DNA of 64,000 bases, taken from Oscillospiraceae bacterium. GTDB lineage: Bacteria > Bacillota > Clostridia > Oscillospirales > Ruminococcaceae. The notes beneath the pieces were generated by a model, which was not told the origin of the DNA, ran no database searches, and was given only the letters and a program-made list of their open reading frames with translations. Both the position numbers and the translations under genes were made by a program. Where the stretch lies: positions 253,421 through 317,420 of the forward strand of contig JAJQFI010000016.1 of the NCBI GenBank assembly GCA_021201235.1, given 5' to 3'. Within the stretch, counting starts at the first letter, position 1; every line of letters starts with the position of its first letter. Shown here in pieces: positions 325 through 37,613 of this stretch.

Positions 325-358
325 GTGCAATAATTTGCCGCCCTGATGTGTTTTAGTA
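325..358 (+). promoter_or_regulatory. ECF-sigma-type promoter, site A
   Basis: A -35-like TGCAAT (326-331), a 17-nt spacer and a -10-like TGTTTTA (349-355) are seen. The whole 34-nt stretch, spacer included, matches sites at 37580-37613 (+) and 16291-16324 (-) at nearly every position. The other two precede the ECF sigma gene itself and an exported NPxTG protein. Assignment to the sigma factor at 37700 is inference from the shared sequence and from the usual autoregulation of ECF factors. Confidence 0.7.
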
Positions 359-383
359 GTATAGAAATATACTCAAGGAGGCA

Positions 384-1259
384 ATAGCTCTCGCCCTGAC
401 CCTCTGCGCCTGCACAATCGTCGAGCCGAACCCCGAGGACCCGGTCGAAGACGCTGTAGAAGACGTTATCGAAGATGTCGAAGATATCGAGGCGGAAGAT
501 CCCATCGTGGATGATGTGGAGTTGGTAGAAGATGTTTTTGAGGAAGAGGAAGAGCCAGTTGAGGACGTTTTCGAGGAAGAAGAGGAACCAGTCGAGGATG
601 TTTTCGAAGAAGGGGAAGAAGATGTAGTTGGCACCATAGAAGGCGAAGTAGTTTACGATGGCGAAAGTCCGTTTGTTGTCAACATTGTCGACCCCGATAA
701 TGTGAGTGAAAGTGCAATTTATGTCGAGACTGCCGAAATTCCGGAGGAAGCTATAAATCGCGCCCTTTTCCATCTTGCAAACCAAGTACCAGGAAGTCTT
801 GTAACGTTGGGATTCACCGAAGAAGAATCCGTAGGTGCAAGCGTAGCATCAGCTTTCAGAGCCTATAACGGAACCACAAAAGAATACTATGATTTATTTT
901 ACTTTCCTCTCATGTATGGCGACACGGCTGTCGCCATGGCTATAAGCTCGTACAACAGCGAGACTGACAAATACAGCTTTCAGATGGGAAAAGACCAGAT
1001 TTCCGATGTCATGAACTATCTCGAGACTTCGCCAGAAAATCCGGCGCTGTTCGTATACTTTGATGACATTTCAGGCGGATTCTTTATCATCACTACTGCC
1101 GCCTATAGACTCGTAGCCGACGACAGCGGGTCTTATGAAATCGCCGAGGAGGATATACCAGATTACATCAGAGGGATAATGAATCGCGAAGTAAATCCGG
1201 ATAATGTCGTGGCTATATACGGCGCACAGGTTGCGACCGAAGAACTTATTGATGATTGA
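384..1259 (+). CDS. Acidic lipoprotein-like protein with a damaged 5' end
   Basis: The frame is open from 360. After a strong ribosome site (AAGGAGG, 375-381) comes a truncated lipoprotein signal, residues ALALTLCAC, with a lipobox-like LCAC but no ATG and no charged n-region. The only start-like codons near it are ATA (369, 384); the first GTG is at 507, which would discard the signal. I infer a deletion of the start codon and first residues, or an unusual ATA start. The mature part has a strongly acidic linker with three 11-residue repeats, then about 190 residues of an unrecognised globular domain with alternating aromatic and aliphatic runs. Promoter site A and the shared DPVED-rich linker tie it to the ECF sigma locus at 37700. 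The function is unknown. Confidence 0.6.
   Translation: MALALTLCACTIVEPNPEDPVEDAVEDVIEDVEDIEAEDPIVDDVELVEDVFEEEEEPVEDVFEEEEEPVEDVFEEGEEDVVGTIEGEVVYDGESPFVVNIVDPDNVSESAIYVETAEIPEEAINRALFHLANQVPGSLVTLGFTEEESVGASVASAFRAYNGTTKEYYDLFYFPLMYGDTAVAMAISSYNSETDKYSFQMGKDQISDVMNYLETSPENPALFVYFDDISGGFFIITTAAYRLVADDSGSYEIAEEDIPDYIRGIMNREVNPDNVVAIYGAQVATEELIDD
528..626 (+). repeat. Three 33-bp tandem coding repeats
   Basis: Units at 528-560, 561-593 and 594-626 each encode EDVFEEEEEPV or a close variant. They form the acidic spacer of the lipoprotein-like gene. Silent differences between units suggest that they are not very recent duplications. Confidence 0.85.
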
Positions 1260-1283
1260 TACAGTCGCATATACGCAAATGCC

Positions 1284-1319
1284 GAAAAAATCCCTCTCCC
1301 GGAGTGGAGGGGATTTTTC
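1284..1319 (+). terminator. Terminator of the acidic lipoprotein-like gene
   Basis: An A-rich arm AAAAATCCC.. (from 1286) pairs with ..GGGGATTTTT (ending 1318) around a short loop, followed by T-rich sequence. It begins 25 nt after the stop codon. Confidence 0.75.
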
Positions 1320-1363
1320 TGCGACTATACAAACATTTTTCACTCATTTTCTCAAGAAAACAG

Positions 1364-1392
1364 TTGAAAAGAGTGCGGATTTATTATATAAT
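1364..1392 (+). promoter_or_regulatory. Sigma-A type promoter of the isomerase-like gene
   Basis: -35 TTGAAA (1364-1369), 17-bp spacer, -10 TATAAT (1387-1392). The implied leader to the ATG at 1476 is about 75 nt, with no regulatory structure that I can recognise. Confidence 0.8.
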
Positions 1393-1475
1393 ATAGGTGC
1401 ATGATTGCATACACGTTCTTTGTTGTCCGTTTTATACGGAAGTAAAGAATGAAAATATTTATTTGGAGGTATAGT

Positions 1476-2960
1476 ATGATAAACATTCCTGTTGTAAAGC
1501 TCGGTATTGTTGCCGTATCGCGTGACTGCTTCCCGATTCAGCTTTCCGAAAAGAGACGCGCCGCAATCGCCGCCGAGTGCAAGGCAAAAAATCAGGACCT
1601 TTATGAGTGTCCCGTAACCGTCGAGAACGAGCTCGATATGCTTAAGGCTGTCGAGGACGTCAAGGCGGCAGGATGCAACGCACTCGTTGTATTCCTTGGT
1701 AACTTCGGTCCCGAGACTCCCGAAACCCTTATTGCAAAGAACTTTGACGGTCCTTGCATGTTCGTTGCCGCCGCTGAGGGCGACGGAGACATGATTAACG
1801 GCAGAGGCGATGCTTATTGCGGCATGCTCAACTGCTCCTATAATCTCGGTCTTCGCAAGCTCAATGGCTACATTCCCGAGTATCCCGTCGGAACCGCTGA
1901 GGACATCACAAAGATGATTGCCGAGTTCGTTCCGATTGCAAGAGTAGTCTTGGGTCTTAAGAACCTCAAGATTATCACCTTCGGTCCCCGTCCGCAGGAC
2001 TTCTTCGCCTGCAACGCTCCCATCAACGGTCTTTATGAGCTGGGCGTTGAGATTGAAGAGAACAGCGAGCTCGACCTTCTCGTTTCCTACAAGGAGCATG
2101 CAGGAGATCCGAGAATCCCCGGTGTCTGCGCCGAAATGGCGGCTGAGATGGGCGAAGGCAAGTATTATCCCGACCTTAATGAAAGAATGGCTCAGTTCGA
2201 GCTCACTCTTCTTGACTGGGCTGAGAACCACAAGGGTTCAAGACAGTATGTTGCATTCGCAGACAAGTGCTGGCCTGCTTTCCCGAGTCAGTTCGGCTTT
2301 GAGCCCTGCTATGTAAACAGCCGTCTCTGCTCAAAAGGCATCCCCGTTTCCTGCGAGGTTGATATCTACGGCGCTCTCTCCGAGTATATCGGCATCTGCC
2401 TCACCGGCGACACCGTTACTCTTCTTGACATCAACAACAGCGTTCCTCAGTACATATATGACGAGGACAAGATTGCCGACCTCGGCTACAAGCTCACCGA
2501 CACGTTCATGGGCTTCCACTGCGGCAATACTCCTTCCTGCAAGATGTGCGACGACAGAGCCGTCAAGTATCAGCTCATCCAGCACAGAACTCTTGAACCT
2601 GAGGGAAGCGACCCCGACTTCACAAGAGGAACCCTCGAGGGCGACATCGCCGCTTCCGACATCACCTTCTACAGGCTTCAGTGCGACAGCGACGGCAAGC
2701 TCCATGCTTACATCGCAGAGGGTGAGATTCTCCCTGTCGCCACCCGTTCGTTCGGCGGCATCGCAATCTTCGCAATCCCGGAGATGGGCAGATTCTATCG
2801 CCACGTTCTCATCCAGAAGAGATATCCTCACCACGGTGCGGTTGCGTTCAGCCATTGCGGCAAGCTCATGTTCGAGGTTATGAAGTATCTCGGCATCGAG
2901 GACATTGCCTACAATCAGCCTGCTTCTCTTCCCTACCCGACCGAGAATCCTTTCGCCTGA
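1476..2960 (+). CDS. L-fucose/L-arabinose isomerase family protein
   Basis: A 494-residue protein of the FucI/AraA fold, whose members interconvert aldoses and ketoses using a divalent metal. Candidate metal ligands can be seen in order: Glu in SCEVDIYGALSEY, Asp in LLDINNS, and His in GFHCGNTP. The start is ATG 1476, placed 6 nt after GGAGG (1465-1469), not the in-frame ATG at 1449. It is shorter than classical FucI (about 590 residues), fitting the 'fucose isomerase-like' branch of uncertain substrate. It stands alone behind its own promoter, followed by pyruvate kinase after a hairpin. No fucose or arabinose kinase or aldolase is nearby, so the substrate cannot be named from context. A role in sugar or sugar-acid entry to glycolysis is inference. 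Confidence 0.75.
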   Translation: MINIPVVKLGIVAVSRDCFPIQLSEKRRAAIAAECKAKNQDLYECPVTVENELDMLKAVEDVKAAGCNALVVFLGNFGPETPETLIAKNFDGPCMFVAAAEGDGDMINGRGDAYCGMLNCSYNLGLRKLNGYIPEYPVGTAEDITKMIAEFVPIARVVLGLKNLKIITFGPRPQDFFACNAPINGLYELGVEIEENSELDLLVSYKEHAGDPRIPGVCAEMAAEMGEGKYYPDLNERMAQFELTLLDWAENHKGSRQYVAFADKCWPAFPSQFGFEPCYVNSRLCSKGIPVSCEVDIYGALSEYIGICLTGDTVTLLDINNSVPQYIYDEDKIADLGYKLTDTFMGFHCGNTPSCKMCDDRAVKYQLIQHRTLEPEGSDPDFTRGTLEGDIAASDITFYRLQCDSDGKLHAYIAEGEILPVATRSFGGIAIFAIPEMGRFYRHVLIQKRYPHHGAVAFSHCGKLMFEVMKYLGIEDIAYNQPASLPYPTENPFA

Positions 2961-2970
2961 TTTAACTCTT

Positions 2971-3046
2971 GTGCCCGCATGGGTTTCCTATGCGGGCACA
3001 CTTCAGGTTGCCGGGAATAACAAGTCTTCAAGGCTTTTGAAGACTT
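2971..3046 (+). terminator. Two consecutive hairpins after the isomerase-like gene
   Basis: Perfect 10-bp stems at 2971-2980/2990-2999 and at 3022-3031/3037-3046. Neither is followed by a clear T run, so they may act as mRNA 3'-end stabilisers or weak terminators, or modulate read-through into pyk. Confidence 0.45.
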
Positions 3047-3090
3047 ATTACTCTTGACAATTACTACAAGACAAATCGGAGGAATACATT

Positions 3091-4503
3091 ATGAGAAAGA
3101 CAAAAATCATCTGTACCATAGGTCCCGCTTGCAGTGATGAAAATACACTTCGGGAAATGATGCTCTCGGGGATGAACGTCGCCCGGCTCAACTTCTTCCA
3201 CGGAACTCACGAAGACCATCTCGAAAAAATAAACCTTATCAAGAAGCTTCGCGACGAGCTTGACCTGCCGGTCGCGATCATGCTCGACACCAAGGGTCCC
3301 GAATACAGAATCCGTTCTTTTGAGAACGGAAAGATTACTCTTAATGAGAGCGACAAGTTCACCTTCACAACAGAAGACGTTGTCGGAAATCAGGAAAGGG
3401 TCACCGTAAACTATAAAGGCTTGGCTCACGACCTTGAAGAAGGAGATATAATCTTACTTAATAACGGTCTGCTCAAATTCACCGTCACATCGGTTGACGA
3501 CACCAACGTTTATACGGTCGTAAACGAGGGCGGCGAGCTCTCAAACAACAAGTCGATGAGCTTCCCGACCAAGCTTCTGAAACAGGAGTATTTAAGCGAA
3601 CAGGACAAGTCGGATTTGCTCTTCGGTATTGAGAACGGCGTTGATTTTGTCGCCTGCTCCTTCGTTTTCTGCAAGCAGGATATGGTCGATATCAAGACTC
3701 TCCTTGACGCCAACGGCGGCGGAGACATCGACCTCATCGCAAAGATTGAGAATCAGGCGGGCATCGACAACATCGAGGAAATCTGCGAGGTTGCTGACGG
3801 CATCATGATTGGCAGAGGCGACATGGGCGTAGAGATTGCCTTCGAGAAGCTCCCGGCTATCCAGAAACAGCTCATCACAAAGTGCAGACTCCTCGGAAAG
3901 CGTGTCATCACAGCTACTGAAATGCTCGAATCGATGATTCATAATCCCCGTCCCACAAGAGCCGAAACCTCGGATGTTGCCAACGCCGTTTACGACGGCA
4001 CAAGCGCAATCATGCTCTCCGGCGAGACCGCCGCAGGCAAATACCCCGTTCTGGCGCTTCAGACCATGGCAAAGATTGCCGAGACCACCGAAAAGAGCAT
4101 CGACTACACCAAGCTCTTCAGAACCTCGGAATTCAAGATTCAGAACACCGTCGACGCTATCTCCCACGCTACATGCGGCATGGCTGTTGACGTAAACGCC
4201 AAGGCTATTGCTGTCTGCTCGCTTTCCGGCTCGACTGTTCGAATGGTTTCGAGATTCAGATGCCCTGTTGACATTCTGGGACTTACAACCAACGTCAAGA
4301 CCTGCTATAAGCTTGCTCTCTCGTGGGGCGTAACTCCCTATATGTGCGACACCTACGAATCGACCGACGTTCTCTTCTACACTGCAAAGAATACTTCTCT
4401 CAAGGTATTCAATCTCGAAAGAGGCGACAAGATTGTCGTCACCGGCGGCATGACCAACGGGCGCTCGGGAAATACCAACCTCATCAAGGTTGAGACTATC
4501 TGA
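3091..4503 (+). CDS. pyk: Pyruvate kinase
   Basis: Transfers phosphate from phosphoenolpyruvate to ADP in the last step of glycolysis, in the cytoplasm. The N-terminal RKTKIICTIGPAC, the catalytic-lysine segment IAKIENQAG, the metal-binding GRGDMGVEI and the signature ITATEMLESMIHNPRPTRAE are all intact. At 470 residues it is the short form without the extra C-terminal PEP-utiliser domain of Bacillus enzymes. The start ATG is 8 nt after GGAGG. It lies downstream of the FucI-like gene and ends at a hairpin terminator, so it may be transcribed partly by read-through. Several enzymes in this window (KdgA, KdgK, the isomerase-like protein) feed the same triose and pyruvate end of metabolism. Confidence 0.97.
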   Translation: MRKTKIICTIGPACSDENTLREMMLSGMNVARLNFFHGTHEDHLEKINLIKKLRDELDLPVAIMLDTKGPEYRIRSFENGKITLNESDKFTFTTEDVVGNQERVTVNYKGLAHDLEEGDIILLNNGLLKFTVTSVDDTNVYTVVNEGGELSNNKSMSFPTKLLKQEYLSEQDKSDLLFGIENGVDFVACSFVFCKQDMVDIKTLLDANGGGDIDLIAKIENQAGIDNIEEICEVADGIMIGRGDMGVEIAFEKLPAIQKQLITKCRLLGKRVITATEMLESMIHNPRPTRAETSDVANAVYDGTSAIMLSGETAAGKYPVLALQTMAKIAETTEKSIDYTKLFRTSEFKIQNTVDAISHATCGMAVDVNAKAIAVCSLSGSTVRMVSRFRCPVDILGLTTNVKTCYKLALSWGVTPYMCDTYESTDVLFYTAKNTSLKVFNLERGDKIVVTGGMTNGRSGNTNLIKVETI

Positions 4504-4521
4504 TAAAGTCAAAAAAATAAA

Positions 4522-4559
4522 GGCAACATTGCTAAAATGGCGCTGTTGCCCGATTTTTT
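4522..4559 (+). terminator. Terminator of pyk
   Basis: Stem GGCAACA (4522-4528) with TGTTGCC (4544-4550), followed by CGATTTTTT. It lies just before the convergent zinc-ribbon gene. Confidence 0.7.
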
Positions 4560-4565
4560 GAGATA

Positions 4566-5501
4566 TTATTTCAGCTTCTTCATTTCGCCGCGGAATCTGA
4601 ATATCAGGACTCCGAAGCAAATCTGGACTGCCGCTCCGATGGCGCAGTTGCAGAAGGCTGTTATCGAAGGGATGAAGATGCTTGTTATGGCGGAGATGAC
4701 GTTTATCGCACCGCCGATGAAGCAGACGACGCCGACGAACGCCGAGGCGTTCCTGCCGATATGCTTACCGTGATCCTCAGTTGACGCTTTCTTGGCGGCG
4801 TTCAGGCTCTTTATTATCATAGCGAGCCAGAAGATGATGACGCCGAAAAATACATCCAAAAACAGTACTCCCAAGAAAACTATCATCGCATCGGACGAGT
4901 TATCGGTGCTGAGGGTGGCGATAAGCATCACTACCATCATAAGCGCAAGAAGTATGCACATCAGGACAAGTTCTATGACATAGATAACCTTTATCATGGT
5001 GAGACCGGCGGTGTTGAAGCGTTCGCCCTTCTTGCTGGCGGCGGTGGCATAGGTCATCCACAGACCGACAGCTATTAGGATATTCGGAAGCTGAGAGAAG
5101 ATTGCAGTGACCAAGCTGAAGCTCCCCAAAAACCTTGACGCTTCGCTTACCATATCCGGGTCGATGTTGTTGAATATCTCGGTGTATATCCCCCAGAAAT
5201 AGCTCGTGTCGAACATCGCAAGAATATTCGAGAGTATCAAAGAGCAGAAAGCAAACGCCGTAAATCTGAATAAGCCGGATGAAGCTACTTTTCTGAGTGC
5301 CGCAAGCGGAGACTCGGGGCTCGGTTCGCTATAGACGGTAGTATTTGGATTCGGAGACGGTGCGGATTGATGTGTGTATGCGTATCCGCCTGCGTATCCG
5401 CTTGCGCTTGTATCCTGAGACGGATTATTAAGCGGTGAGCCGCAACCCTGACAGAAATTTGCGTTGTCGGGATTCTTGGTGCCGCATTTTGAACAAAACA
5501 T
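4566..5501 (-). CDS. Zinc-ribbon membrane protein, function unknown
   Basis: A 311-residue protein. Residues 1-24 form a zinc ribbon with Cys3, Cys6, Cys17 and Cys20 (CSKC...CQGC). A Gly/Tyr/Ser/Pro-rich linker follows (about 28-65). Then come about five to six hydrophobic segments (roughly 77-97, 130-155, 165-195, 205-230, 245-285), so the C-terminal part is a multipass membrane protein. The start is supported by AGGAGGG 6-7 nt upstream, and a promoter lies at 5537-5566. Proteins with an N-terminal zinc ribbon fused to membrane domains are common in Clostridia and mostly uncharacterised. It is a single-gene unit between two oppositely oriented operons, and I cannot assign a function. Confidence 0.75.
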   Translation of the reverse strand: MFCSKCGTKNPDNANFCQGCGSPLNNPSQDTSASGYAGGYAYTHQSAPSPNPNTTVYSEPSPESPLAALRKVASSGLFRFTAFAFCSLILSNILAMFDTSYFWGIYTEIFNNIDPDMVSEASRFLGSFSLVTAIFSQLPNILIAVGLWMTYATAASKKGERFNTAGLTMIKVIYVIELVLMCILLALMMVVMLIATLSTDNSSDAMIVFLGVLFLDVFFGVIIFWLAMIIKSLNAAKKASTEDHGKHIGRNASAFVGVVCFIGGAINVISAITSIFIPSITAFCNCAIGAAVQICFGVLIFRFRGEMKKLK

Positions 5502-5536
5502 TATATTCCCTCCTGTTTAAAAAATCGGTTTTGTTA

Positions 5537-5566
5537 ATAATATCACAGTTTTATCGCTTCTGTCAA
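5537..5566 (-). promoter_or_regulatory. Promoter of the zinc-ribbon membrane protein
   Basis: On the minus strand: -35 TTGACA (5561-5566), 18-bp spacer, -10 TATTAT (5537-5542). Confidence 0.7.
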
Positions 5567-5675
5567 TACCCGAATCGGTCGAAGTGGTGCAGATTTCTTC
5601 GGATTGCAGGAGAACTGCCGACTTTCGGCACAAATCACAGGCTTGTTACGGGAAAAATTTCGGTAAAAATACCAC

Positions 5676-5712
5676 TTGACTTTATTGTGCTAACATGGTA
5701 ACATGATAGCAC
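5676..5712 (+). promoter_or_regulatory. Histidine operon promoter with overlapping palindromic operator
   Basis: -35 TTGACT (5676-5681), 17-bp spacer, -10 TAACAT (5699-5704). A 26-bp dyad occupies 5687-5712: half-sites GTGCTAaCATG and CATGaTAGCAC, matching in 10 of 11 positions around a GTAA centre. The dyad covers half of the spacer, the -10 and the likely start point, so a bound protein would block RNA polymerase. The first gene of the operon is the TrpR-superfamily regulator YerC, the obvious candidate ligand. GTGCTA...TAGCAC also recalls TrpR half-sites built around CTAG. Autoregulation is inference. Confidence 0.7.
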
Positions 5713-5737
5713 GATAACAAAAAGGAGTGTGCCCCGT

Positions 5738-6052
5738 ATGGCTACATCCAGTATGGATACATCCCGTGTGGATACATATGAAGAAAACATCTTAAGGCTT
5801 TTTGAAGCAATACTCAAGCTTGAAGACGTGGAAGAATGCAAGCGCTTTTTCGACGATTTGTGCACCGTGAAGGAGCTTAAGGATATGAGTCAGCGTTTCG
5901 AGGTTGCAATGCTCCTTGACGACGGGCTCGTCTATTCGGACATTGTAAACAGGACCGGTGCGAGCACCACCACGATAAGCCGTGTCAACCGCTGTCTTAT
6001 GTACGGCGAGGACGGCTATAAAACGGTAATCGAAAGGATGAAGGACGAGTGA
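5738..6052 (+). CDS. yerC: TrpR-superfamily regulator YerC, probable histidine operon repressor
   Basis: A 104-residue all-helical DNA-binding protein of the YerC/YecD branch of the TrpR superfamily. The conserved core runs from LFEAILKL through FFDDLCTVKEL to the helix-turn-helix YSDIVNRTGASTTTISRVNR. ATG 5738 is chosen because AAAGGAG (5721-5727) is 10 nt away; the GTG at 5729 would be only 1 nt from it. It is the first gene of the his operon, overlapping hisZ by 4 nt, and sits directly downstream of a palindrome overlapping the promoter. YerC-type proteins (also called HisR) have been linked to control of his genes in Gram-positive bacteria; histidine as co-repressor is inference. The first codons contain a threefold near-repeat of TATGGATACATCC. 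Confidence 0.85.
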   Translation: MATSSMDTSRVDTYEENILRLFEAILKLEDVEECKRFFDDLCTVKELKDMSQRFEVAMLLDDGLVYSDIVNRTGASTTTISRVNRCLMYGEDGYKTVIERMKDE

Positions 6053-7149
6053 GCACAATAAGCTCTCTTAGAACAGATGAAGAAGCGGTTCTGAAGCTTC
6101 GGAGCCTCTATGAAAGCAGGGGCTATCAGGGCTACAAGATGAACGGCTTTGAAGAATACGATATATATGCACAGAACAAGGACTTTCTCGGCGGCGAAGC
6201 GATTATCACATTTACTGATACCGAAGGACGCCTGATGGCGCTGAAGCCGGACGTGACGATGTCGATAATCCGATCGAGAACGGAGCGGGACAACGTGACT
6301 GAAAAGCTTTATTACGACGAGAACGTCTGCCGCGTTTCGCACGATTCGCACAGGCTGAAAGAAATCCTCCAGTCGGGGCTCGAGTGCATCGGAAACATAG
6401 ATTTATACAACACCTGCGAGGTCGTAAGCCTTGCCGCCGAGAGCCTCGGGCTGTTCGGAAGGAAATACATACTCGACATTTCGCATATGGGAATCGTGAC
6501 GGGGCTTATAGACAATCTCCCCGTTTCGGAATCCCAAAGAAAAGAGCTCACGAGGCTCATAGGCTCGAAGAATCTTCACGGAATTGAAAGTCTCTTGTCG
6601 GGTGTTCTGGCAAGCGACGAAGCCAAAGAAAGGCTTATTGATCTTGCGGATTTGTCGGGCTCGCCGGACAAGGTTCTCCCCTCCCTTAAAGAGATTTGCG
6701 TCGGCACTCCCGCCGAAGAGGGACTTCGGGAGCTCGAAAGAGTTACGGGAGTTCTCAGGGAAAGCAAAATATTCGCAAGCCTCCGGTTTGATTTCTCGGT
6801 TGTTCAGGACATGAGCTACTATAACGGAATCGTCTTTCAGGGCTTCATCGAAGGAATCCCCGAGAAGGTTTTGAGCGGAGGAAGGTACGACCCGCTCCTC
6901 AAGCGTATCGGCAAGAACAAGGGAGCAATCGGATTTGCACTGAATGTCGAATCGCTCGAGAGGATACTTGATGCGAGGGATTTGCTTGATGCCGACATCG
7001 CGCTTGTATATTCAGAAGAGGACGACGCCGCAGAGGTGGCGAAGCGTGCAAAAGAGCTTTCCGAAAACGGCAAACGGGTTCGGGTGCTCGATGAAATTCC
7101 GAAAAGAGCACGTTTCGGCGAGATAATCTATTTTAACGAGAGGCATTGA
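6049..7149 (+). CDS. hisZ: ATP phosphoribosyltransferase regulatory subunit
   Basis: HisZ resembles the catalytic core of histidyl-tRNA synthetase but has lost aminoacylation. It assembles with short-form HisG and is needed for that enzyme's activity and feedback control. The 366 residues include the class II synthetase-like motifs (LMALKPDVTMSIIRS; YYNGIVFQGF; VLSGGRYDPLL). It starts at GTG 6049 within the yerC stop (GTGA overlap), preceded by AAGGA, indicating translational coupling. The next gene is a short HisG, the expected partner. Confidence 0.93.
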   Translation: MSTISSLRTDEEAVLKLRSLYESRGYQGYKMNGFEEYDIYAQNKDFLGGEAIITFTDTEGRLMALKPDVTMSIIRSRTERDNVTEKLYYDENVCRVSHDSHRLKEILQSGLECIGNIDLYNTCEVVSLAAESLGLFGRKYILDISHMGIVTGLIDNLPVSESQRKELTRLIGSKNLHGIESLLSGVLASDEAKERLIDLADLSGSPDKVLPSLKEICVGTPAEEGLRELERVTGVLRESKIFASLRFDFSVVQDMSYYNGIVFQGFIEGIPEKVLSGGRYDPLLKRIGKNKGAIGFALNVESLERILDARDLLDADIALVYSEEDDAAEVAKRAKELSENGKRVRVLDEIPKRARFGEIIYFNERH

Positions 7150-7155
7150 GTTTGC

Positions 7156-7788: not shown

Positions 7789-7796
7789 ACATAAGT

Positions 7797-9071: not shown

Positions 9072-9088
9072 CGGGAGTTTATGTTTAT

Positions 9089-15415: not shown

Positions 15416-16249
15416 TTACTTGTGCTTTTTGGTGGCAAAGACTGCTCCAAGCGCCATAACCGGTATCGAAAGCAGTAAAAATGCACCGGTGGTGGGGTTG
15501 GTTTCCTCCTCGTCATCGTAGTAGTCCTCTACCAGAAGAGGCTCGTCGGTCTCCTCGGTGGCGATATCCATCGGCTCGCCATTCTCGTCATAGCTCGGAC
15601 TGCCCCAGTCATCGTCATCGGTGCTGAGGTTTACATCTTCTACAATATCTTCGTCCAGACCGTCGGGGAGAGGATAGTATGTGTAGGTTACTGCGTCCTC
15701 TTCCGAGAGATTTGCGATGCCCAAAGCCTCGACAACCTTGTCATATGCGCCGTCGGAGAGCTTACAGCCCTTGCCGGTCTCCCAGCAGAAGAGGCAGGAG
15801 TCGCCCGAGGAATCGAGGAAGATTATGAGCCTCGGCAAAGAGCCGTCGGCAGTTCTTATGAGCACCCTTTCGCGACCCCAAGAGTAATAGTCCTCCGACT
15901 GCTCGACGACGGAAACGTCGCCGTTATCGTCGCGGTAGTAAACGTCCTCAAAGACGGAATCGGAATCCTCCGAGAGTATCTCAATCACCGCCGAAATATC
16001 CGCAACGGGATAATAAGTTCCCTCAAGCTGAGCCTCGGCGTTATCGCTTCTGATGTCATAATATAAACTGCTGTTGACGTTCTCGTGGAACGAGGTGCTG
16101 ATTTCAAAGCTCAAGCCCTCGGCGGTGTAGTCATACTCCGAAAGAAGCTCACCAAGCGTCGCGGCTTCACTGCCATAAGCGCAGACCGGCAAAGCACAAA
16201 CCACCGCCATCAAAACCACAGCCAAAACGGTTGCCAATAATTTTTTCAT
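15416..16249 (-). CDS. Exported protein with NPxTG cell-wall sorting signal
   Basis: A 277-residue protein with an N-terminal signal peptide (MKKLLATVLAVVLMAVVCAL...AYG). The middle domain has paired short motifs but is not recognised. A very acidic stretch follows (about 215-250). The C-terminus carries NPTTGAFLLLSIPVMALG and a basic tail KKHK, the layout of a sortase-processed wall anchor. ATG 16249 is 7 nt after AAGGAGG, so the longer in-frame extension is not used. The ECF-type promoter (site C) lies about 40 nt upstream, so it is probably induced with the sigma factor at 37700. Its acidic linker resembles those of the lipoprotein-like gene at 384 and the anti-sigma-like protein. The biochemical function is unknown. 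Confidence 0.8.
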   Translation of the reverse strand: MKKLLATVLAVVLMAVVCALPVCAYGSEAATLGELLSEYDYTAEGLSFEISTSFHENVNSSLYYDIRSDNAEAQLEGTYYPVADISAVIEILSEDSDSVFEDVYYRDDNGDVSVVEQSEDYYSWGRERVLIRTADGSLPRLIIFLDSSGDSCLFCWETGKGCKLSDGAYDKVVEALGIANLSEEDAVTYTYYPLPDGLDEDIVEDVNLSTDDDDWGSPSYDENGEPMDIATEETDEPLLVEDYYDDEEETNPTTGAFLLLSIPVMALGAVFATKKHK

Positions 16250-16290: not shown

Positions 16291-16324
16291 ATGTAATACA
16301 CATCAGAGAGGCGAATTATTGCAT
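16291..16324 (-). promoter_or_regulatory. ECF-sigma-type promoter, site C
   Basis: On the minus strand: TGCAAT (16318-16323), 17-nt spacer (16301-16317), TGTATTA (16294-16300). It is nearly identical to sites A and B through the spacer (shared CTGATG before the -10). Confidence 0.72.
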
Positions 16325-16348
16325 CGTAATGAAAAAATTTTTTAAAAA

Positions 16349-30777: not shown

Positions 30778-30823
30778 AATATCCCACCTCACTCAGGATG
30801 ATTTTGAACTGAAAAGCAATATT

Positions 30824-32797
30824 TTAAATGTCCAGAACGGTTACTATGATTGTAGGTCTGCGCTTGGTCTTGGAGAAGACGAAGTCGCTGATTTCGTCGC
30901 GAACCTTGTTCTTGACGGCTGTATAATCGTGCCTGGTCGAAAGCTCCTGTTGGAGCACCTGATGAGCTTTCTTCTTCACTTCCGCAAAGAGCTCCTCGTT
31001 GGTTTTTTCGTATACAAAGCCCTTCGAGACAATCTCGGGTCCTGAGAGAAGTTTGCGGTCAATCTTGTCGATAGTGGCGCTTACGGAGATAACTCCGTCC
31101 TCGGCAAGGCGCTTTCTGTCCTTGAGAACAGCCGCACCGACGTCGCCGACGCCCAAGCCGTCGACCATGACCTTGCCGGCGGGAACACTGCCATTGACCT
31201 TCATACCGTTCTTTGAAAGCTCGATTACGTTACCAACATCGGCGATGAGAATATTCTTATCGGGGATGCCGATTTCGCGTGCGGTCTCGGCGTGACGTGT
31301 AAGATGCTTATATTCGCCGTGAACGGGGATGAAATACTTCGGTCTGACAAGGCTTATGATGAGCTTCTGCTCCTCCTGACATGCGTGTCCGGAAACGTGA
31401 ACCTCATACATCTCTTCGTATACGACCTCTGCGCCGAGCTTCAGGAGCTGATTTACAACCCTGCCGACAAACTTTTCGTTGCCGGGAATAGGTCTGGCTG
31501 AGATTATGATAAAGTCGTTTGAAGTGATGCTCACCTGACGATGGTCGTTGGTTGCCATTCTCGTTAAAGCGCTCATCGGTTCGCCCTGACTGCCCGTCGT
31601 GATTAAAACGATTTCACCGTCTGAGTAGTTGTGCATATCGGCGATGTCTATCATGACGCCCGCAGGTGCCTTGAGATAGCCGAGCTCGGTTGCGAGACCG
31701 ATAACATTTATCATACTTCTGCCGAAGACGGCAACCTTGCGGTTGTGCTTTGCGGCGCAGTTGATAATCTGCTGGACACGGTGGATGTTCGACGAGAAGG
31801 TCGCTATGATGATTCTCTTGTCGCCGGCTTTGTTGAAGAGCTTTTCGAAGCTCTCGCCGACGGTTCTCTCACTCGGAGTGAAGCCGCGACGCTCGGAGTT
31901 GGTCGAGTCGCTCATGAGAGCCAACACGCCCTCGTCGCCGAGCCGCGCGAACCTCGGGAGGTCTATGATTCCGCCCTCGATGGGGGTGTAGTCGACCTTG
32001 AAGTCGCCCATATGGACAACTGTCCCTGCGGGAGTGTGAAGAGCTATTGCAACGGCATCGGGAATAGAGTGGTTGACCTTTATGAATTCGGCAGTAAATA
32101 CGCCGAGCTGAACCTTGTCAGACGGAGTGACAACGTGGAGCATGGATTTCCCGAGATTATGCTCCTTTAGCTTGTTCTCGATAAGCCCGATTGTGAGCCT
32201 TGTGGCATAGACCGGCACGTTTAACTTCTTGAGCAGATACGGGATTCCGCCGATGTGGTCCTCGTGGCCGTGGGTTACCAATACGCCTCTTACTCTGTCG
32301 GCATTCTTTTCGACATAGGTGAAATCCGGGATGACCATGTCGACGCCGGGCATCTCGCTGTCGGGGAAGGTCATTCCGCAGTCGATGATTACGATATCGT
32401 TTCCGTATTCGACGAGGGTCATATTCTCGCCGATTTCGCCGAGACCGCCGAGAGGAATTATCTTGAGCGGTGTTTTGGAATTCGTAGCTACGGCGTTGCT
32501 TACTATCGGGACAGGCTTCGGAGCCTGCTGTGCTGTTGGTTGTGTCTGTGCTGGTTTTGTTTCGCGTGATTCGGTTTTCTGTGATTTTGATTTCTTGCTT
32601 GATTGTGATTTCTGGCTTTTTCTTGAGGTCTGAACACCTCTTGACTTCTGGTACTGTGCCGCCTTCTTCGGGGGCTTCGGTGCGGATATTGCCGCGGCTA
32701 TTGCGGCATCGAGCGCACTGTCCCTCGTCACGTTTGCTTCTGACTTGGAGCGGCTTTTTCTTGGTGACTTGATCTTCTTTTCTTCAGTTGTTGACAT
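30824..32797 (-). CDS. rnj: Ribonuclease J with a long basic N-terminal extension
   Basis: Metallo-beta-lactamase/beta-CASP ribonuclease with 5'-3' exonuclease and endonuclease activity in mRNA and rRNA processing. The conserved enzyme starts near residue 110 (LKIIPLGGLGEIGENMTLVEY) and carries the metal motif THGHEDHIGG, the downstream His/Asp motifs and the beta-CASP region (MSDSTNSERRGFTPSE). Residues 1-108 are low complexity, rich in Lys, Ser, Gln and Ala, and probably disordered. At 657 residues the protein is about 100 longer than usual. GAAAGGAA precedes the ATG. It has its own promoter about 110 nt upstream. Confidence 0.93.
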   Translation of the reverse strand: MSTTEEKKIKSPRKSRSKSEANVTRDSALDAAIAAAISAPKPPKKAAQYQKSRGVQTSRKSQKSQSSKKSKSQKTESRETKPAQTQPTAQQAPKPVPIVSNAVATNSKTPLKIIPLGGLGEIGENMTLVEYGNDIVIIDCGMTFPDSEMPGVDMVIPDFTYVEKNADRVRGVLVTHGHEDHIGGIPYLLKKLNVPVYATRLTIGLIENKLKEHNLGKSMLHVVTPSDKVQLGVFTAEFIKVNHSIPDAVAIALHTPAGTVVHMGDFKVDYTPIEGGIIDLPRFARLGDEGVLALMSDSTNSERRGFTPSERTVGESFEKLFNKAGDKRIIIATFSSNIHRVQQIINCAAKHNRKVAVFGRSMINVIGLATELGYLKAPAGVMIDIADMHNYSDGEIVLITTGSQGEPMSALTRMATNDHRQVSITSNDFIIISARPIPGNEKFVGRVVNQLLKLGAEVVYEEMYEVHVSGHACQEEQKLIISLVRPKYFIPVHGEYKHLTRHAETAREIGIPDKNILIADVGNVIELSKNGMKVNGSVPAGKVMVDGLGVGDVGAAVLKDRKRLAEDGVISVSATIDKIDRKLLSGPEIVSKGFVYEKTNEELFAEVKKKAHQVLQQELSTRHDYTAVKNKVRDEISDFVFSKTKRRPTIIVTVLDI

Positions 32798-32918
32798 GAA
32801 TTTCCTTTCTCAAAAAATTTTTATTTTAAGGTTATATTTAATATGTAACACGGGTTTCGGCTCAGCATCGCCTCGCCCGCGCATAAGATTCCATGATGAA
32901 AATACAAATATATCTGAT

Positions 32919-32947
32919 ATAATACTACAAATCTTCGTAAATGTCAA
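32919..32947 (-). promoter_or_regulatory. Promoter of rnj
   Basis: On the minus strand: -35 TTGACA (32942-32947), 17-bp spacer, -10 TATTAT (32919-32924). The -35 overlaps the stop codon of the upstream nucleotidyltransferase gene, and the leader is about 110 nt. Confidence 0.8.
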
Positions 32948-35091
32948 GATTGATGTGCCCGAAGTCGTGATATTATATCATCACAAATTGCGGTCGCCGC
33001 CTCCTGTGACACCGATTCGACATACATCCGGAGCTCTTTGCCGCTTTTCAGGGGTCGGACATACGCCCTTGCGCCGGAGGATTCGACGATGATGTCAGAG
33101 CCTCGGCGGTTTGTGGCAAATTCACGGTGCAACAGCTTTGGCAGTCCTTTGCCCATCCGTGCGGTCTTGCGGTAGTAACAGATATCCGGGAGCTCGGAGA
33201 GTGCAACAGATGCAGATATTTCCCTTTTAGTGAGATATCCAACCGCCTCAGCTATCAGAAACAGTGGGTCAAGAGAGAACATCGAAAGCTCGCCGTCGTC
33301 GGGCGGAGAAAGACGAAATACCTCGCAATCCGATTCTTTTGCATATTCGTCGCAGACAAGCGGCGCACGCTCGGGCAGGACGACTTTTTCACCATCGTAA
33401 TAATGCGAACGGCAGGACAAAAGAAGCAACTGCTCATAGGTCAGCTTTGCGCTCGGAAACTCACAAACGGTATCTTCTATGCTCTTGCCCGTCGTAAATT
33501 TCAGCCTCTCGCCTTCCGACCAATCGAGATTCTGCACGGCTTCCGAGAAAATCTCTTTTTCCCGAGGGTCTTTTGAAGAAATCTGAACGCTTCCGGCAAA
33601 ATGCTTTGGAAGAGTTTCTCGCAATACATTTAAATATAGCTTCCTCTCGGCATCGGCGTTGACTATCGGGGCGGTTACGGTATCGCCAAGCTCGCCGCGA
33701 TTGTACTTTTCGCAGAGCTTACGCTCCTCGGAACGGGCAAGCTCGCAGTTGCCGCTTCGGAAAATCCGGACGTTGCCGCCCGAAATATAGGCGCAATATC
33801 GGGTTTTCAGCCTTCTTGCCGCGAAAACAGTCTCGCCGAAAGCGGCATTATTAAGATAGTATACCGCCGTGCCGCAGGAGCGGAGCCCGAGAGACAGTGC
33901 CTCGAACATGCTTACGCTATCGCATGAGTAGCCGACCGTGATGCTCTCTTGATTGAATGCTCTGGCGATAGCTTTGCCCAGGAACAGGAGGTTTTCGGTT
34001 GTGAGCTCTATTCCGTCGGCACGACCGCCCTCGCCCATCTCAAGGAGCTTATAGCCGGATGGCGTCACATCTCGTCTTGCCCTGATTCCGGCGGGGATTT
34101 TCGAGTTTGGGGCTATTTTCACGCCCGGGTCTATCGTCACAGCCGAGCCGATCACGCTTCCGCTTCCGACCGCCGAGAGCTCGCCGAAGCGCACTCCCCT
34201 GCCGACAGTCACGTCCTCGCAGATGACGCATTTATTAAGCTCACAGCCATCGCCCATCGAGGAGCCGTTCATCACGAGTGAGGACTGAATGCGGCAGTTG
34301 CGACCTACGGTTGCGCCCTGCTCAATGACACTGCCACCGGTTACAGTCGTCCCATTGCCGACCGATGCACCCTCGAAAATCAGATAATCTTTGTCTTCCT
34401 CATCAAGGAGCACCGTCTGGCATGTGAGAAGTGAGGAGATATCGCCGATGTCGAACCAGATTCCCGTTTCGGGAATGGTGAAAATCCTGCCGCCCGATGC
34501 CAAGACCTCCGGAAAAACGTCCGAGGCAAAATCGACCTTCTCGTTTTCGGGGATTCGGGAGATTATATCTTTTGAAATAATATATGCTCCCGTATTGGCG
34601 AGGTCTGTAAGGCAGGAGTCGTAGGCGGGCTTCTCGGAGAAGCCGATAACCCTGCCGGTTTCATCGGCTGTCACAAGACCATATTCTCTTGGGTCACTCA
34701 CCTCGTGGGAGACGATGGTCACGTCGGCGTCGTTTCGCTCGTGGAAGTCGACGATTTTCTGGAGGTTGAACTCACAGACACCGTCGCCGCTCAGGACCAT
34801 CATGTCGTCGCCGTTCCACGCCTTTTGGACACAGCCGGCGGTGCCGAGCGGCACGTCTTCACGGACGTAATTCAGCTTGATGCCGTTCGAAAAGCTGCCG
34901 AGGGTCTCCTCAAGCTTATCGGCAAGATAGAAGTCGGCGATTGTTGCCTCCTTGAAGCCGCTTCGGAAAAGAAGTGCCGTCAAACGCTCGATTGCCGGGA
35001 TTCCGAGAACACGCACGAGGGGCTTAGGAGTATCGAAAGTAAGCGGTCGGAGACGCATCCCCTCTCCTCCCGCAAGTATAATTATCTGCAT
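32944..35091 (-). CDS. Sugar nucleotidyltransferase fused to a degenerate phosphomannomutase
   Basis: A 715-residue fusion. Residues 1-230 form a nucleotidyltransferase (IILAGGEGMRLRPLTFDTPKPL, DGVCEF, GFSEKP), most like mannose-1-phosphate guanylyltransferases. Residues 235-345 form a left-handed beta-helix of hexapeptide repeats (GNGTTVTGGSVIEQGATVG). From about 365 the rest follows the phosphoglucomutase/phosphomannomutase fold, but the catalytic TASHNP-type phosphoserine loop is replaced by YISGGNVRIFRSG, and the C-terminal RPSGTEP phosphate loop by RPLKSGKELRMY. The transferase can probably make a nucleotide sugar, while the mutase part is probably inactive. It is a single gene between rnj and hflX with its own weak promoter. 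The substrate is unknown. Confidence 0.85.
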   Translation of the reverse strand: MQIIILAGGEGMRLRPLTFDTPKPLVRVLGIPAIERLTALLFRSGFKEATIADFYLADKLEETLGSFSNGIKLNYVREDVPLGTAGCVQKAWNGDDMMVLSGDGVCEFNLQKIVDFHERNDADVTIVSHEVSDPREYGLVTADETGRVIGFSEKPAYDSCLTDLANTGAYIISKDIISRIPENEKVDFASDVFPEVLASGGRIFTIPETGIWFDIGDISSLLTCQTVLLDEEDKDYLIFEGASVGNGTTVTGGSVIEQGATVGRNCRIQSSLVMNGSSMGDGCELNKCVICEDVTVGRGVRFGELSAVGSGSVIGSAVTIDPGVKIAPNSKIPAGIRARRDVTPSGYKLLEMGEGGRADGIELTTENLLFLGKAIARAFNQESITVGYSCDSVSMFEALSLGLRSCGTAVYYLNNAAFGETVFAARRLKTRYCAYISGGNVRIFRSGNCELARSEERKLCEKYNRGELGDTVTAPIVNADAERKLYLNVLRETLPKHFAGSVQISSKDPREKEIFSEAVQNLDWSEGERLKFTTGKSIEDTVCEFPSAKLTYEQLLLLSCRSHYYDGEKVVLPERAPLVCDEYAKESDCEVFRLSPPDDGELSMFSLDPLFLIAEAVGYLTKREISASVALSELPDICYYRKTARMGKGLPKLLHREFATNRRGSDIIVESSGARAYVRPLKSGKELRMYVESVSQEAATAICDDIISRLRAHQS

Positions 35092-35119
35092 AACATAGTT
35101 CCTTTCAGGTTTTGGTAAT

Positions 35120-35149
35120 ATGTTAAGCAGGAAATTCCGAAATATTCAA
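35120..35149 (-). promoter_or_regulatory. Possible promoter of the nucleotidyltransferase fusion
   Basis: On the minus strand: -35 TTGAAT (35144-35149), 18-bp spacer, -10 TAACAT (35120-35125). It lies just after the hflX terminator hairpin. Weak match. Confidence 0.4.
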
Positions 35150-35150
35150 A

Positions 35151-35175
35151 AGTGGACAGCTATTAACTGTCCACT
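35151..35175 (-). terminator. Terminator overlapping the end of hflX
   Basis: Perfect 9-bp stem AGTGGACAG/CTGTCCACT. On the minus strand the first arm includes the last codons of hflX, the stop lies in the loop, and TTT follows the second arm. Confidence 0.65.
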
Positions 35176-36404
35176 CTATAGTTTTCTGCAATATTACATA
35201 GCTTGATATCCACAAGCACATCGGCTTTTATGCCCTCGGGGGTGTATTCCTCCGAATAGACGGTGCCGTCTTTTCTTATCTCCGAAAGAAGTCCGGCTTC
35301 AGTGTATGGGAGAAGAAGGTTCATCCGTCTTGCCGTTTCGGGCAGGGCTTTTGCGATGCCCTCAAGAAGAGAATCAAGACCTTCTGAGTTTTTCGCCGAA
35401 ATCCGGATGATTGAATCGTCGGTGACGGATATTTCAGGAATCAAATCGCACTTATTAAGCACCGTCAGGGTCGGGATTCCGTCACAGCCGAGGTCGTGCA
35501 ACAATTCTTCTGTAACATGCTTTTCTTCCTCGTAATACTCGCTCGAAGCATCTATAAGATGTATGAGCAAATCGGCGCTGGCGGCTTCCTCGAGGGTCGA
35601 CTTGAAGGCTTCGACGAGCTGATGAGGGAGCCTCGAAATGAGCCCGACCGTGTCGATGAGGGTCACGCTTCTGCCGTCGGGTAAGAGTATTGCCCGGGAG
35701 GTCGTCTCGAGGGTGGCGAAAAGTTTGTCTTCCGAGAGGACTCCCGCATCGGTCAGGGCGTTAAGAAGCGTCGACTTGCCGGCGTTGGTATAGCCAACGA
35801 TGGCGGCGGTGAGAACACCGTCCTTCTTGCGGCGTTTGCGGGTTATGTCGCGGCGCTGTTCGACTTCTTTCAGGTCTTTTTCGAGAGCCGAGATTCGGGA
35901 ACGGATATGACGGCGGTCGGTTTCTAACTTGGTTTCGCCGGGGCCCCGGGTGCCGATTCCTCCGCCGAGACGGGAGAGCTTTATGCCCATTCCAGCAAGC
36001 CTTGTCAGGCGGTATTTGTTCTGTGCAAGCTTGACCTGCAGCTTGCCCTCGCGGGTGGTGGCACGCTGGGCGAAGATGTCAAGAATAAGCATTGTGCGGT
36101 CTATCGTAAAAGTATCGGTTGCGTCTTCGATGTTTCTTATCTGTGTGGCGGTGAGCTCACGGTCAAAAATAAGCTGGTCTATCTCGAGGGCTTCGCACTG
36201 TTCGGCGAGCTCGGCAAGCCTTCCTGAGCCTATGCAGGTTGCGCCCTCTATAGACGGTCTTTTCTGGATAACTGTCGCGACGACCTCCGCTCCGGCGGTA
36301 TCACAAAGAGCGCAGAGCTCTTCCATACTGCGCTCTGCGTCAAACTCGCCGGTGTCAACCGATACTAATATTACTCTTGGTTTTTCCTGATTATTCTCTA
36401 TCAT
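35163..36404 (-). CDS. hflX: GTPase HflX
   Basis: Ribosome-associated GTPase that splits or rescues stalled ribosomes after stress. The 413 residues include the N-terminal HflX domain (to about 175), a glycine-rich linker GGGIGTRGPGETKLE, a coiled helix pair, and the G domain with GYTNAGKSTLLN, DTVGLI and NKCD. The start lies 10 nt after the argC-like stop, with the nearest ribosome site (GGAG) about 17 nt away, so translation probably relies on coupling. Confidence 0.95.
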   Translation of the reverse strand: MIENNQEKPRVILVSVDTGEFDAERSMEELCALCDTAGAEVVATVIQKRPSIEGATCIGSGRLAELAEQCEALEIDQLIFDRELTATQIRNIEDATDTFTIDRTMLILDIFAQRATTREGKLQVKLAQNKYRLTRLAGMGIKLSRLGGGIGTRGPGETKLETDRRHIRSRISALEKDLKEVEQRRDITRKRRKKDGVLTAAIVGYTNAGKSTLLNALTDAGVLSEDKLFATLETTSRAILLPDGRSVTLIDTVGLISRLPHQLVEAFKSTLEEAASADLLIHLIDASSEYYEEEKHVTEELLHDLGCDGIPTLTVLNKCDLIPEISVTDDSIIRISAKNSEGLDSLLEGIAKALPETARRMNLLLPYTEAGLLSEIRKDGTVYSEEYTPEGIKADVLVDIKLCNIAENYRVDS

Positions 36405-36414
36405 AAAACTTGTT

Positions 36415-37359
36415 TTACAGTACTCCTGTCAATTCATCTATTCCGAGCATCAGGTTCATGCACTGAACCGCCGCGCCGGCTCCGCCCTTGCCGAGGTTGT
36501 CGTACCTCGCCGCCAGTAGACAGATGTCGTTGTCGCCGAAGACGAAAATCTGCATCTTGTTCGAGCCCGCCATGCCGTTTGCTTCAAGGAATCCGTCCAG
36601 ATCCTGAATCGAGGTCTCGAAATTCATGACATCAATAAGCGGCTCGTGCTCGTAAGCTCTTGAGATATAGTCCCAGACCTGACGGGAATGGAGACGCTTT
36701 GCAAGGGTTCTCAGGTGCAAGGGCACGGTTACTAATGCTCCGCTCGGGTAATCGTCGATAATCGGGCTGATTGCGGGCTTATAGGAAAGTCCGCAGGCGT
36801 GCATAAGCTCCTTCTGGAGCATCATTGTCTGCTCGAGGGCATACATGCGAGCCGAGGAGAAGCCGTAGGGACGGCTTGAGCTCTCGTACATAGCTATCAT
36901 ATTCGAGCCGCCGTTGGTATAGCCGATGACAGAATTTATCATCAGAGGATGGTAGGGCGGCATGATTTTTGCCTTGACAAGGGGCGCAAGAAGCAAAGCC
37001 GCACCGGTCGCCATCGGGTTCGGGAGGGCGGTATAGCGGGACTGAGATATCTTTTTGCGGTGGTCGGGCGAAAGCTCCGGAAGACCGTATGCCCACTGGG
37101 GCGACAATCTGTAGGCGTTTGACGTGTCAAGCACCTTGGTTGCGGGATTCTGAATGAGAGGCACCGTTTCGGTAACGGTTTTCGTTGACTGGCAGAGGAT
37201 GACTATATCCGCAGTGTTCAGAAGATTCAGCCTCTGCTCCTCAGTGAACTTGGTTCTGTCCTCAAGGTGGATTACTTCGAGGTCGTCCCTGCCGCTCAGC
37301 ATTGCATTTATATTAAGACTTACGGCACCATAGTGCCCGTCGATTAAAACTTTATTCAA
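36415..37359 (-). CDS. argC: ArgC-like protein lacking the catalytic cysteine motif
   Basis: A 314-residue relative of type 2 N-acetyl-gamma-glutamyl-phosphate reductase, normally the NADPH step of arginine synthesis. The N-terminal VLIDGHYGAVSLNI, AYGLPEL and C-terminal DNLGKGGAGAAVQCMNLMLG match the family. The active-site segment, normally NPGCYATG, reads NPMATG (37003-37020), losing the nucleophilic Cys plus two residues, and the usual KHxHLPE histidine motif is not evident. Either it is a pseudoenzyme or it has another substrate. No other arg gene is nearby. TTG 37359 is preferred (GAGG about 11 nt upstream); GTG 37368 is only 3 nt from it. It is followed by hflX. Confidence 0.8.
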   Translation of the reverse strand: MNKVLIDGHYGAVSLNINAMLSGRDDLEVIHLEDRTKFTEEQRLNLLNTADIVILCQSTKTVTETVPLIQNPATKVLDTSNAYRLSPQWAYGLPELSPDHRKKISQSRYTALPNPMATGAALLLAPLVKAKIMPPYHPLMINSVIGYTNGGSNMIAMYESSSRPYGFSSARMYALEQTMMLQKELMHACGLSYKPAISPIIDDYPSGALVTVPLHLRTLAKRLHSRQVWDYISRAYEHEPLIDVMNFETSIQDLDGFLEANGMAGSNKMQIFVFGDNDICLLAARYDNLGKGGAGAAVQCMNLMLGIDELTGVL

Positions 37360-37397
37360 AAGTTTCACATCCCTCGGATTTGAAGTTACTCATAGAT

Positions 37398-37426
37398 ATT
37401 ATCTCATATTTTTTGGATTTTGTCAA
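37398..37426 (-). promoter_or_regulatory. Promoter of the argC-like/hflX unit
   Basis: On the minus strand: -35 TTGACA (37421-37426), 17-bp spacer, -10 GATAAT (37398-37403). The stretch between here and 37580 is A/T-rich and shows no gene. Confidence 0.8.
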
Positions 37427-37579
37427 TACTATAGGGCGAAAAAAGTTTTAATTTCACCGTTTTTTGCGAAATTCGCGGCGATATTCGCGTGTTAAAACTG
37501 CTTTTAGAAGAAAAAATCTCGGCTATTCGAAGAAAATGGGTTTACTTTTCGAAAATTTCTGATAAAATATTTTGTATGG

Positions 37580-37613
37580 ATGCAATAATCCGCCGCTCTG
37601 ATGTGTATTAGTA
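37580..37613 (+). promoter_or_regulatory. ECF-sigma-type promoter, site B (autoregulatory)
   Basis: TGCAAT (37581-37586), 17-nt spacer, TGTATTA (37604-37610). It matches sites A and C throughout, including the spacer. It precedes the ECF sigma gene by about 85 nt, which fits autoregulation. The ATG at 37601 lies inside this element and is not a start codon. Confidence 0.75.

Follow-up and report, generated by a model that had tools for sequence, protein, structure and literature searches.

A predicted extracytoplasmic function sigma factor regulon in gut Oscillospiraceae with a candidate small RNA directed against the sigma mRNA

We analysed a stretch of 64,000 nucleotides (nt) from the genome of an Oscillospiraceae bacterium (contig JAJQFI010000016.1 of assembly GCA_021201235.1; hereafter, the window), which encodes a sigma factor of the extracytoplasmic function (ECF) type preceded by an ECF-type promoter. 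Judging from the sequences of this and related genomes, the sigma factor probably governs a regulon composed of its own operon and ~16 other units, among them a candidate small RNA (sRNA) that would pair with the sigma mRNA and damp the response. This RNA is most likely a sigma-dependent antisense sRNA limiting sigma. We also favour, with less confidence, a genus-wide one-step loop in which sigma transcribes an antisense RNA covering the 5' end and the Shine-Dalgarno (SD)-like segment of its own mRNA, the two sides co-evolving, and in which a regulon containing a serpin may answer proteolysis at the surface of the cell in the gut.

The ECF-type promoter and the genes behind it

A homologue of the sigma factor was found in all 31 genomes of the genus (split in two in G298), to which, going by identical sigma promoters, 'Ruminococcus sp. 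UBA1409' and 'Candidatus Faeciplasma pullistercoris' also appear to belong. The closest solved chain to this sigma factor by sequence was SigW, and the scores of the factor stayed below the NCBIfam cut-offs for SigW (83 against 209 bits), SigV (70 against 190) and the SigM subfamily (74 against 148). The next gene overlaps the sigma gene and encodes a putative anti-sigma factor, whose hydrophobic stretch was recognised by eye in 22 aligned sequences; this protein matched no Pfam family above cut-off and no known anti-sigma family.

An ECF-type element precedes the sigma gene in all 30 genus loci examined (27 distinct sequences after merging identical rows) and occupies 17 sites in the genome of the window, which supports at the sequence level the shared, autoregulated promoter proposed in the initial annotation. 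The expression used to find the sigma promoters, [CT]GCAA[TC]-N17-[CT]GT[AT]TT[AG], fixes most of GCAA and GT-TT; the positions that it leaves free also agree, the A of GTATT and a TGAAA four bases downstream being invariant in all 27 sequences. With up to one mismatch, the site was present in 31 of 31 genomes, and the reversed pattern produced a single match across the 31 together. Site counts per genome run from 13 to 20 among the 11 closest relatives, in which sigma is at least 90% identical, and from 1 to 10 among the other 20. Among 56 more distant sigma loci, similar elements were seen in few (L032, L033, L062, L078, L084, L086) and none in most, those of L032 and L033 being TGCAA-N-CGTATTA-like.

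The motif scan of the window's own genome covered 2.06 Mb in 32 contigs. A pattern with a partly free spacer detected 8 sites at up to 3 mismatches (none with the reversed pattern), and the looser TGCAATA-N13-RTKYGTWTTR detected 22 at up to 2 mismatches (3 with the reversed pattern), 16 of them with at most one mismatch and 6 with two. Of the latter we kept L174 alone, which follows a T-rich tract and lies 22 nt before a lipoprotein gene; the remaining five (L169–L173) lacked an A-tract at the expected distance, lay in or right beside open reading frames (ORFs), and were dropped. None of the 17 sites in the final set falls inside a credible gene, as judged from ORF maps, and most stand before exported genes; the genome scan that the initial annotation had named as a possible refutation thus came out in favour of a regulon. 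Their consensus consists of an A-tract ~9–17 nt before the −35 element, TGCAATAAT, a GC-rich variable middle, TGTATTA, and TRnAA four bases later. Conservation of the letters fixed in the search pattern follows from the pattern itself, which covers neither the A-tract nor TRnAA nor the last AT of TGCAATAAT. Spacer positions 9–18 carry −0.06 to 0.79 bits over the 17 sites, and the spacer is not conserved across the 27 distinct sigma promoters either. The near-constant spacer described in the initial annotation holds for the window trio and a few other sites and dissolves in the full set; therefore, the second DNA-reading protein that it had been thought to call for is not needed. As a separate observation, the promoters at L006 (G000:C22:116671-116700, around 1440-1530) and L097 are followed by an inverted copy of their own −35 and spacer, which forms a long near-perfect palindrome with the leader.

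Exported proteins or lipoproteins are encoded behind 12 of the 17 sites, as compared with 8 of the 57 window genes, the NPxTG gene itself included among these 8 (Fisher p=2e-5). Gene starts and signal peptides came from a simple heuristic of our own, applied by the same rule to the 57 window genes, which errs in places: it placed a nifS start internally, counted a spurious ORF at the G301 sRNA site as exported and made some doubtful 'lipoprotein' calls. Of the sites classified in three related genomes, 13 of 18, 12 of 15 and 10 of 15 stand before exported products, the second of these counts including a spurious ORF at the sRNA locus; in all, 48 of 52 regions were classified, with no site by the stricter pattern in L202, L209 and L226, and with the contig of L216 ending before a gene. 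For 13 of the 17 sites a homologue was found behind the motif in at least two of these genomes, some of the matches being short or paralogous. Acidic residues exceed basic ones (D+E > K+R) in 13 of the 16 protein-coding units. A mainly envelope-directed regulon with mostly acidic products, as initially suggested, agrees with these counts; the description of it as small and limited to surface proteins does not, since the 17 sites include an ATP-binding cassette (ABC) operon, a nifS-thiI-sortase operon and a small RNA.

Among the products that could be annotated are a lipoprotein with a Pfam DUF4349 match (5e-61), a lipoprotein serpin (2e-70; L165, G000:C9:315081) with homologues behind the motif at 79–88% identity in all three related genomes (L192, L206, L219), two NPxTG proteins, and two proteins with fibronectin-III matches just under cut-off. 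One site precedes the ABC operon (ATPase, exported protein and FtsX/MacB permease) and another (L166/L229, G000:C22:158153) the operon for a cysteine desulfurase (nifS), ThiI-CinA and a sortase, whose mRNA may be leaderless because its first ATG codons sit at the expected transcription start. Similar sites were observed at L186, L204 and L217. At L228 (G000:C24:1-6100, reverse strand), the gene behind the motif is fibronectin-like, and after it come a second ECF sigma (181 amino acids) and a 758-amino-acid beta-propeller-domain protein, an arrangement that is possibly a sigma cascade. We also observed in G271 two motif-controlled lipoprotein genes (L099, L102) with a common hairpin-like leader segment, AAAATTGCCCTAATGGCAATTTT.

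Within the window, the three copies of TGCAAT-N17-TGTWTTA reported in the initial annotation are all exact, with zero mismatches, the earlier coordinates carrying 1–3 surplus flanking bases (Table 1). Chance had been judged hard to invoke, and for the exact sites it is: none of 200 dinucleotide shuffles of the window contained an exact copy. At up to two mismatches, finding three matches is ordinary (shuffle mean 1.75; at least three in 26 of 100 shuffles), so that the signal rests on exactness. The genes behind the three promoters are those named at the time, an acidic ORF, an NPxTG protein and the ECF sigma gene, with the correction that the acidic ORF (384–1259) begins ATA-GCT-CTC, without a usable start codon in this genome. 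Its G271 orthologue (L093) has both an ATG and a lipoprotein signal, and the start lost here would reflect either a deletion or an assembly error. This ORF had no match in Pfam or NCBIfam, and the 277-amino-acid NPTTG protein had none in Pfam. Two tRNA genes (39–109 and 135–214, minus strand) lie just upstream of the first promoter.

A predicted small RNA complementary to the sigma mRNA leader

One of the 17 promoters precedes a conserved segment of ~90 nt, located outside the window, that ends in an intrinsic terminator, where conservation stops; typA starts 227 nt after the site. Eight aligned copies share a 5' stem-loop, an unpaired stretch (the seed) and a terminator stem, seven pairs of which are kept through changes on both sides. 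The sRNA was found in 28 of the 31 genus genomes, with the promoter present in each. With a covariance model (R1), every close genome (n=11) yielded a single strong copy, the promoter being equally spaced in all of them; elsewhere the model gave a chance-level match in G298 and an opposite-strand match in G308. A promoter-plus-GTTTC pattern added 14 further genomes (and gave 8 unrelated matches in close genomes), and synteny with queT added three more (G217, G311, G317). A queT-like ORF upstream of the sRNA was clear by eye in 22 of 25 loci, the copy of the window's genome matching Pfam QueT at 6e-41. When the sRNA loci L233, L231 and L196 and the window were compared with 4227 Rfam families, only two window tRNAs exceeded the gathering score. 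Two other identities of this locus were considered and rejected: it might be a leader of typA, the next gene in several close genomes, but of the 14 farther genomes 13 carry their main downstream ORF on the other strand; or a small ORF, but no ATG position is common to the 8 aligned copies. The segment thus has its own promoter and intrinsic terminator away from its predicted target, as expected by sequence of a trans-acting sRNA.

In the window's genome, the sRNA contains ATCATACTTTCA, which is perfectly complementary to TGAAAGTATGAT at the expected 5' end of the sigma mRNA. The energy of the whole duplex between sRNA and sigma leader was not equalled by any of 300 shuffles, and the other 16 regulon 5' ends, one of which is that of the sRNA itself, reached at best −18.8 kcal/mol. 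Across the 27 genomes that have both parts, the seed complements the first 6–12 nt of the sigma mRNA of the same genome, and both sides change together. Differing leaders have matching seeds, as in the pairs TGAAAACATG / CATGTTTTCA, TTGAAACATGAA / TTCATGTTTCAA and TGAAACGTG / CACGTTTCA and, in further genomes, TGAAACGAGT / ACTCGTTTCA and TGAAACGTAT / ATACGTTTCA. With the exceptions discussed below, seed complementarity is therefore kept by co-change with the target, which again points to a trans-acting sRNA.

We measured this relation as the uninterrupted Watson-Crick run between the sRNA and the first 20 nt of the sigma leader. The run with the genome's own leader averages 10.2 nt; among 668 mismatched pairs the mean is 6.5 nt, and 96 of these pairs reach 9. 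None of 20,000 permutations reached the observed run sum, and none did on the 17 distinct leaders either; the permutation test was made first on 24 genomes and then on all 27. When permuting within each of three clades, the observed value was reached in 65, 351 and 42 of 20,000 permutations, and shuffled sRNAs reached the own run in 111 of 4,800 cases. Because the 14 farther genomes were found by the promoter-plus-GTTTC pattern, the GTTTC in their seeds stems in part from the search; the seed bases beyond it, which carry the co-change, were left free. In 24 of the 27 genomes, at most 5% of shuffles do as well as the full duplex. Downstream of the seed target, the AAAGGAG segment is found 11–13 nt before the likely start codon in four far relatives (L154, L158–L160). 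At the position of the possible hairpin that follows it in the window (Table 1), other leaders differ in sequence, and it is perhaps a folded spacer in the ribosome-binding site.

From these data we infer a circuit in which the ECF sigma would transcribe its own operon, consisting of sigma and the putative membrane anti-sigma, and ~16 other units encoding mostly lipoproteins and other exported proteins. The membrane anti-sigma would hold sigma until a signal releases it, and released sigma would then raise the envelope genes, itself and the sRNA. The seed of the sRNA would bind the very start of the sigma mRNA (over 12 nt in the window's genome), with pairing extending to the AAAGGAG SD-like segment, and so lower sigma translation or mRNA stability, damping the response. 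Because the set contains a serpin, protease attack is a reasonable guess for the signal, though only that.

Table 1 Coordinates of the features in the window and of the small RNA locus outside it
Feature	Position	Strand	Basis or remark
A-tract AAAAATTTTTT, UP-element-like	309..319	+	Sequence; A/T tract equally spaced across the 17-site set
ECF-type promoter, −35 TGCAAT, −10 TGTTTTA	326..355	+	
Acidic lipoprotein gene	384..1259	+	Start codon and first part of signal peptide missing
277-amino-acid acidic protein	15416..16249	-	Signal peptide (heuristic); C-terminal NPTTG sorting signal
ECF-type promoter	16294..16323	-	
A-tract AAAAAATTTTTT	16332..16343	-	
A/T tract upstream of sigma promoter	37564..37573	+	Sequence; 27 distinct orthologous promoters
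ECF-type promoter of sigma gene, predicted autoregulatory	37581..37610	+	30/30 loci examined
Expected sigma mRNA start TGAAAGTATGAT	37615..37626	+	Perfect 12-nt complement of sRNA seed
Sigma mRNA leader predicted to pair with sRNA	37615..37663	+	−41.2 kcal/mol; AAAGGAG at 37652-37658
Possible hairpin TTGCCGCA ... TGCGGTAA	37663..37688	+	By eye; between AAAGGAG and start codon
ECF sigma factor, 166 amino acids	37700..38200	+	Regions 2 and 4; Pfam PF04542, PF08281
Putative anti-sigma	38187..39935	+	Short N-terminal part, hydrophobic stretch (by eye), acidic extracytoplasmic part
Candidate small RNA, ~90 nt	G000:C1:174276-174365, outside window		Promoter site 174242-174271; downstream of queT

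Alternative readings

Several observations weigh against this circuit. The conservation of the sigma promoters is partly built into the search expression, other ECF sigmas of the genome could share these promoters, one of the three target genes in the window (the acidic ORF) is broken here, and two sites stand before operons that are not plainly made of envelope genes. The sRNA was not found in G313, G319 and G320, two of which have no queT match and the third no site in the stretch examined. The covariation term of RNAalifold is unfavourable (+1.23), and several pairs of the terminator are disrupted in some copies. Some seeds are short: those of G299 and G322 form 6 uninterrupted Watson-Crick pairs (12 with one G.U), and those of G148 and G311 form 8 each at the mRNA start. 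In 10 of the 27 genomes the sRNA matches the leader of another genome in a longer run than its own (in G044, for instance, 9 with its own leader and 16 with another). In energy, the exchange between the two close-clade types is one-sided, own-type sRNAs pairing with the leader of the other type about as strongly as the sRNA that belongs to it, and the full duplexes of G310 (40/100), G315 (36/100) and G318 (7/100) do not stand out from shuffles at the 5% threshold. Finally, the DUF4349 leader pairs with the sRNA at −18.7 kcal/mol, better than 98% of shuffles; therefore, sigma may not be the sole target.

Some of these points would also suit an ECF regulon that is real and whose sRNA has its main job elsewhere, the match to the sigma leader being secondary or neutral. 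RybB and MicA, two sRNAs that depend on sigma-E, have omp mRNAs as targets (PMC1804206), and both the short matches of some genomes and the pairing with the DUF4349 leader go in the same direction. However, the seed tracks the sigma leader over the 17 distinct leaders and inside each of three clades, and no other regulon 5' end of the window's genome (n=16) comes near −41.2 kcal/mol, and we consider a main target elsewhere quite improbable. The pairing might instead activate sigma, for example by opening the hairpin between AAAGGAG and the start codon, and thereby generate positive feedback. Such a hairpin seems present in several leaders by eye, and the pairing covers the mRNA up to it; nevertheless, activation seems unlikely, as in every one of the 11 close genomes the predicted duplex extends over at least GGAG, and in 6 of them over the whole of AAAGGAG. 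Cover of this kind usually lowers translation, and for this reason we prefer repression.

Two further alternatives concern the promoters themselves. If they were housekeeping (sigma-A) promoters with a conserved operator, a second protein reading the spacer would account for its near-constancy in the window trio, and TG-n-TATTA resembles an extended −10. This is very improbable in view of the variable spacer of the full set, the position of the element upstream of an ECF sigma gene in 30 of 30 loci, and its likeness to the elements of a few distant sigma homologues (L032, L033), most of the 56 showing none. Practically no weight attaches to chance or to copies of a dispersed repeat. It is true that three two-mismatch sites in 64 kb are not rare and that L006 adjoins an inverted copy of part of itself, but exact copies never appeared in the 200 shuffles, the reversed control matched once in 31 genomes, and the flanks beyond the A-tract, the promoter and TRnAA are not conserved across the 17 sites.

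Comparison with known systems

ECF sigmas are mostly held in check by anti-sigma proteins. In the repressive loop that we favour, this control would be joined by a direct RNA brake, a dedicated sRNA of the same promoter class that pairs with the sigma message. The promoters also suggest a common circuit for uncharacterised acidic surface proteins of uncultured gut Oscillospiraceae, including a serpin and NPxTG-anchored proteins. The predicted regulon resembles those of Bacillus-type ECF sigmas (SigW, SigV and SigM; CsfT, CsfU and SigV in C. difficile) in its two-domain sigma, its autoregulated operon with a membrane protein and its exported targets. It differs from them in the −35 TGCAAT, in the −10, which reads TGTATTA among the close relatives and CGTATTA for part of the genus, in a putative anti-sigma outside the known families, and in a set that includes a candidate antisense RNA and a serpin. 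An early rule for ECF promoters specified AAC at −35 and CGT at −10, a requirement dropped by a later classification (PMC8103513); the promoters found here depart from that rule, since the close clade has GCAAT and TGTATT, and part of the genus CGTATT. The consensus sequences of the three C. difficile ECF sigmas were still unidentified in 2020 (PMC7438776). As for the serpin, those from the gut microbiota are known as siropins (PMC5127057), from which the one described here differs as a lipoprotein, predicted from sequence, behind an ECF-type promoter.

The feedback proposed here has its nearest counterparts in Proteobacteria, where the sRNA feedback on ECF sigmas described in the papers cited here acts through other mRNAs or another sigma. 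In Enterobacteriaceae, the sigma-E-made sRNAs RybB, MicA and SlrA feed back on the sigma response via envelope omp or lpp mRNAs (PMC1804206, PMC4651636), whereas the predicted target in our case is the sigma mRNA itself, and the host is Gram-positive. StsR of Rhodobacter sphaeroides is a sigma-dependent sRNA that binds and lowers the mRNA of the ECF sigma rpoE (PMC8307010). Its synthesis depends on RpoHI/RpoHII, at one remove from RpoE, and the seed begins 10 nt downstream of the start codon, whereas the sRNA studied here has the promoter class of the sigma gene and pairs at the 5' end of the mRNA. Among the matches listed in open-access literature, as seen from titles and the starts of abstracts, none described an ECF sigma of a Firmicute whose own mRNA is the target of an sRNA. 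The sequences therefore point to a regulon of a familiar kind in which the feedback would be of a new type, the sRNAs with which we compared it acting via other mRNAs or another sigma. If the loop operates as proposed, a two-base change on one side of the pairing would break control, and the matching change on the other side would restore it.

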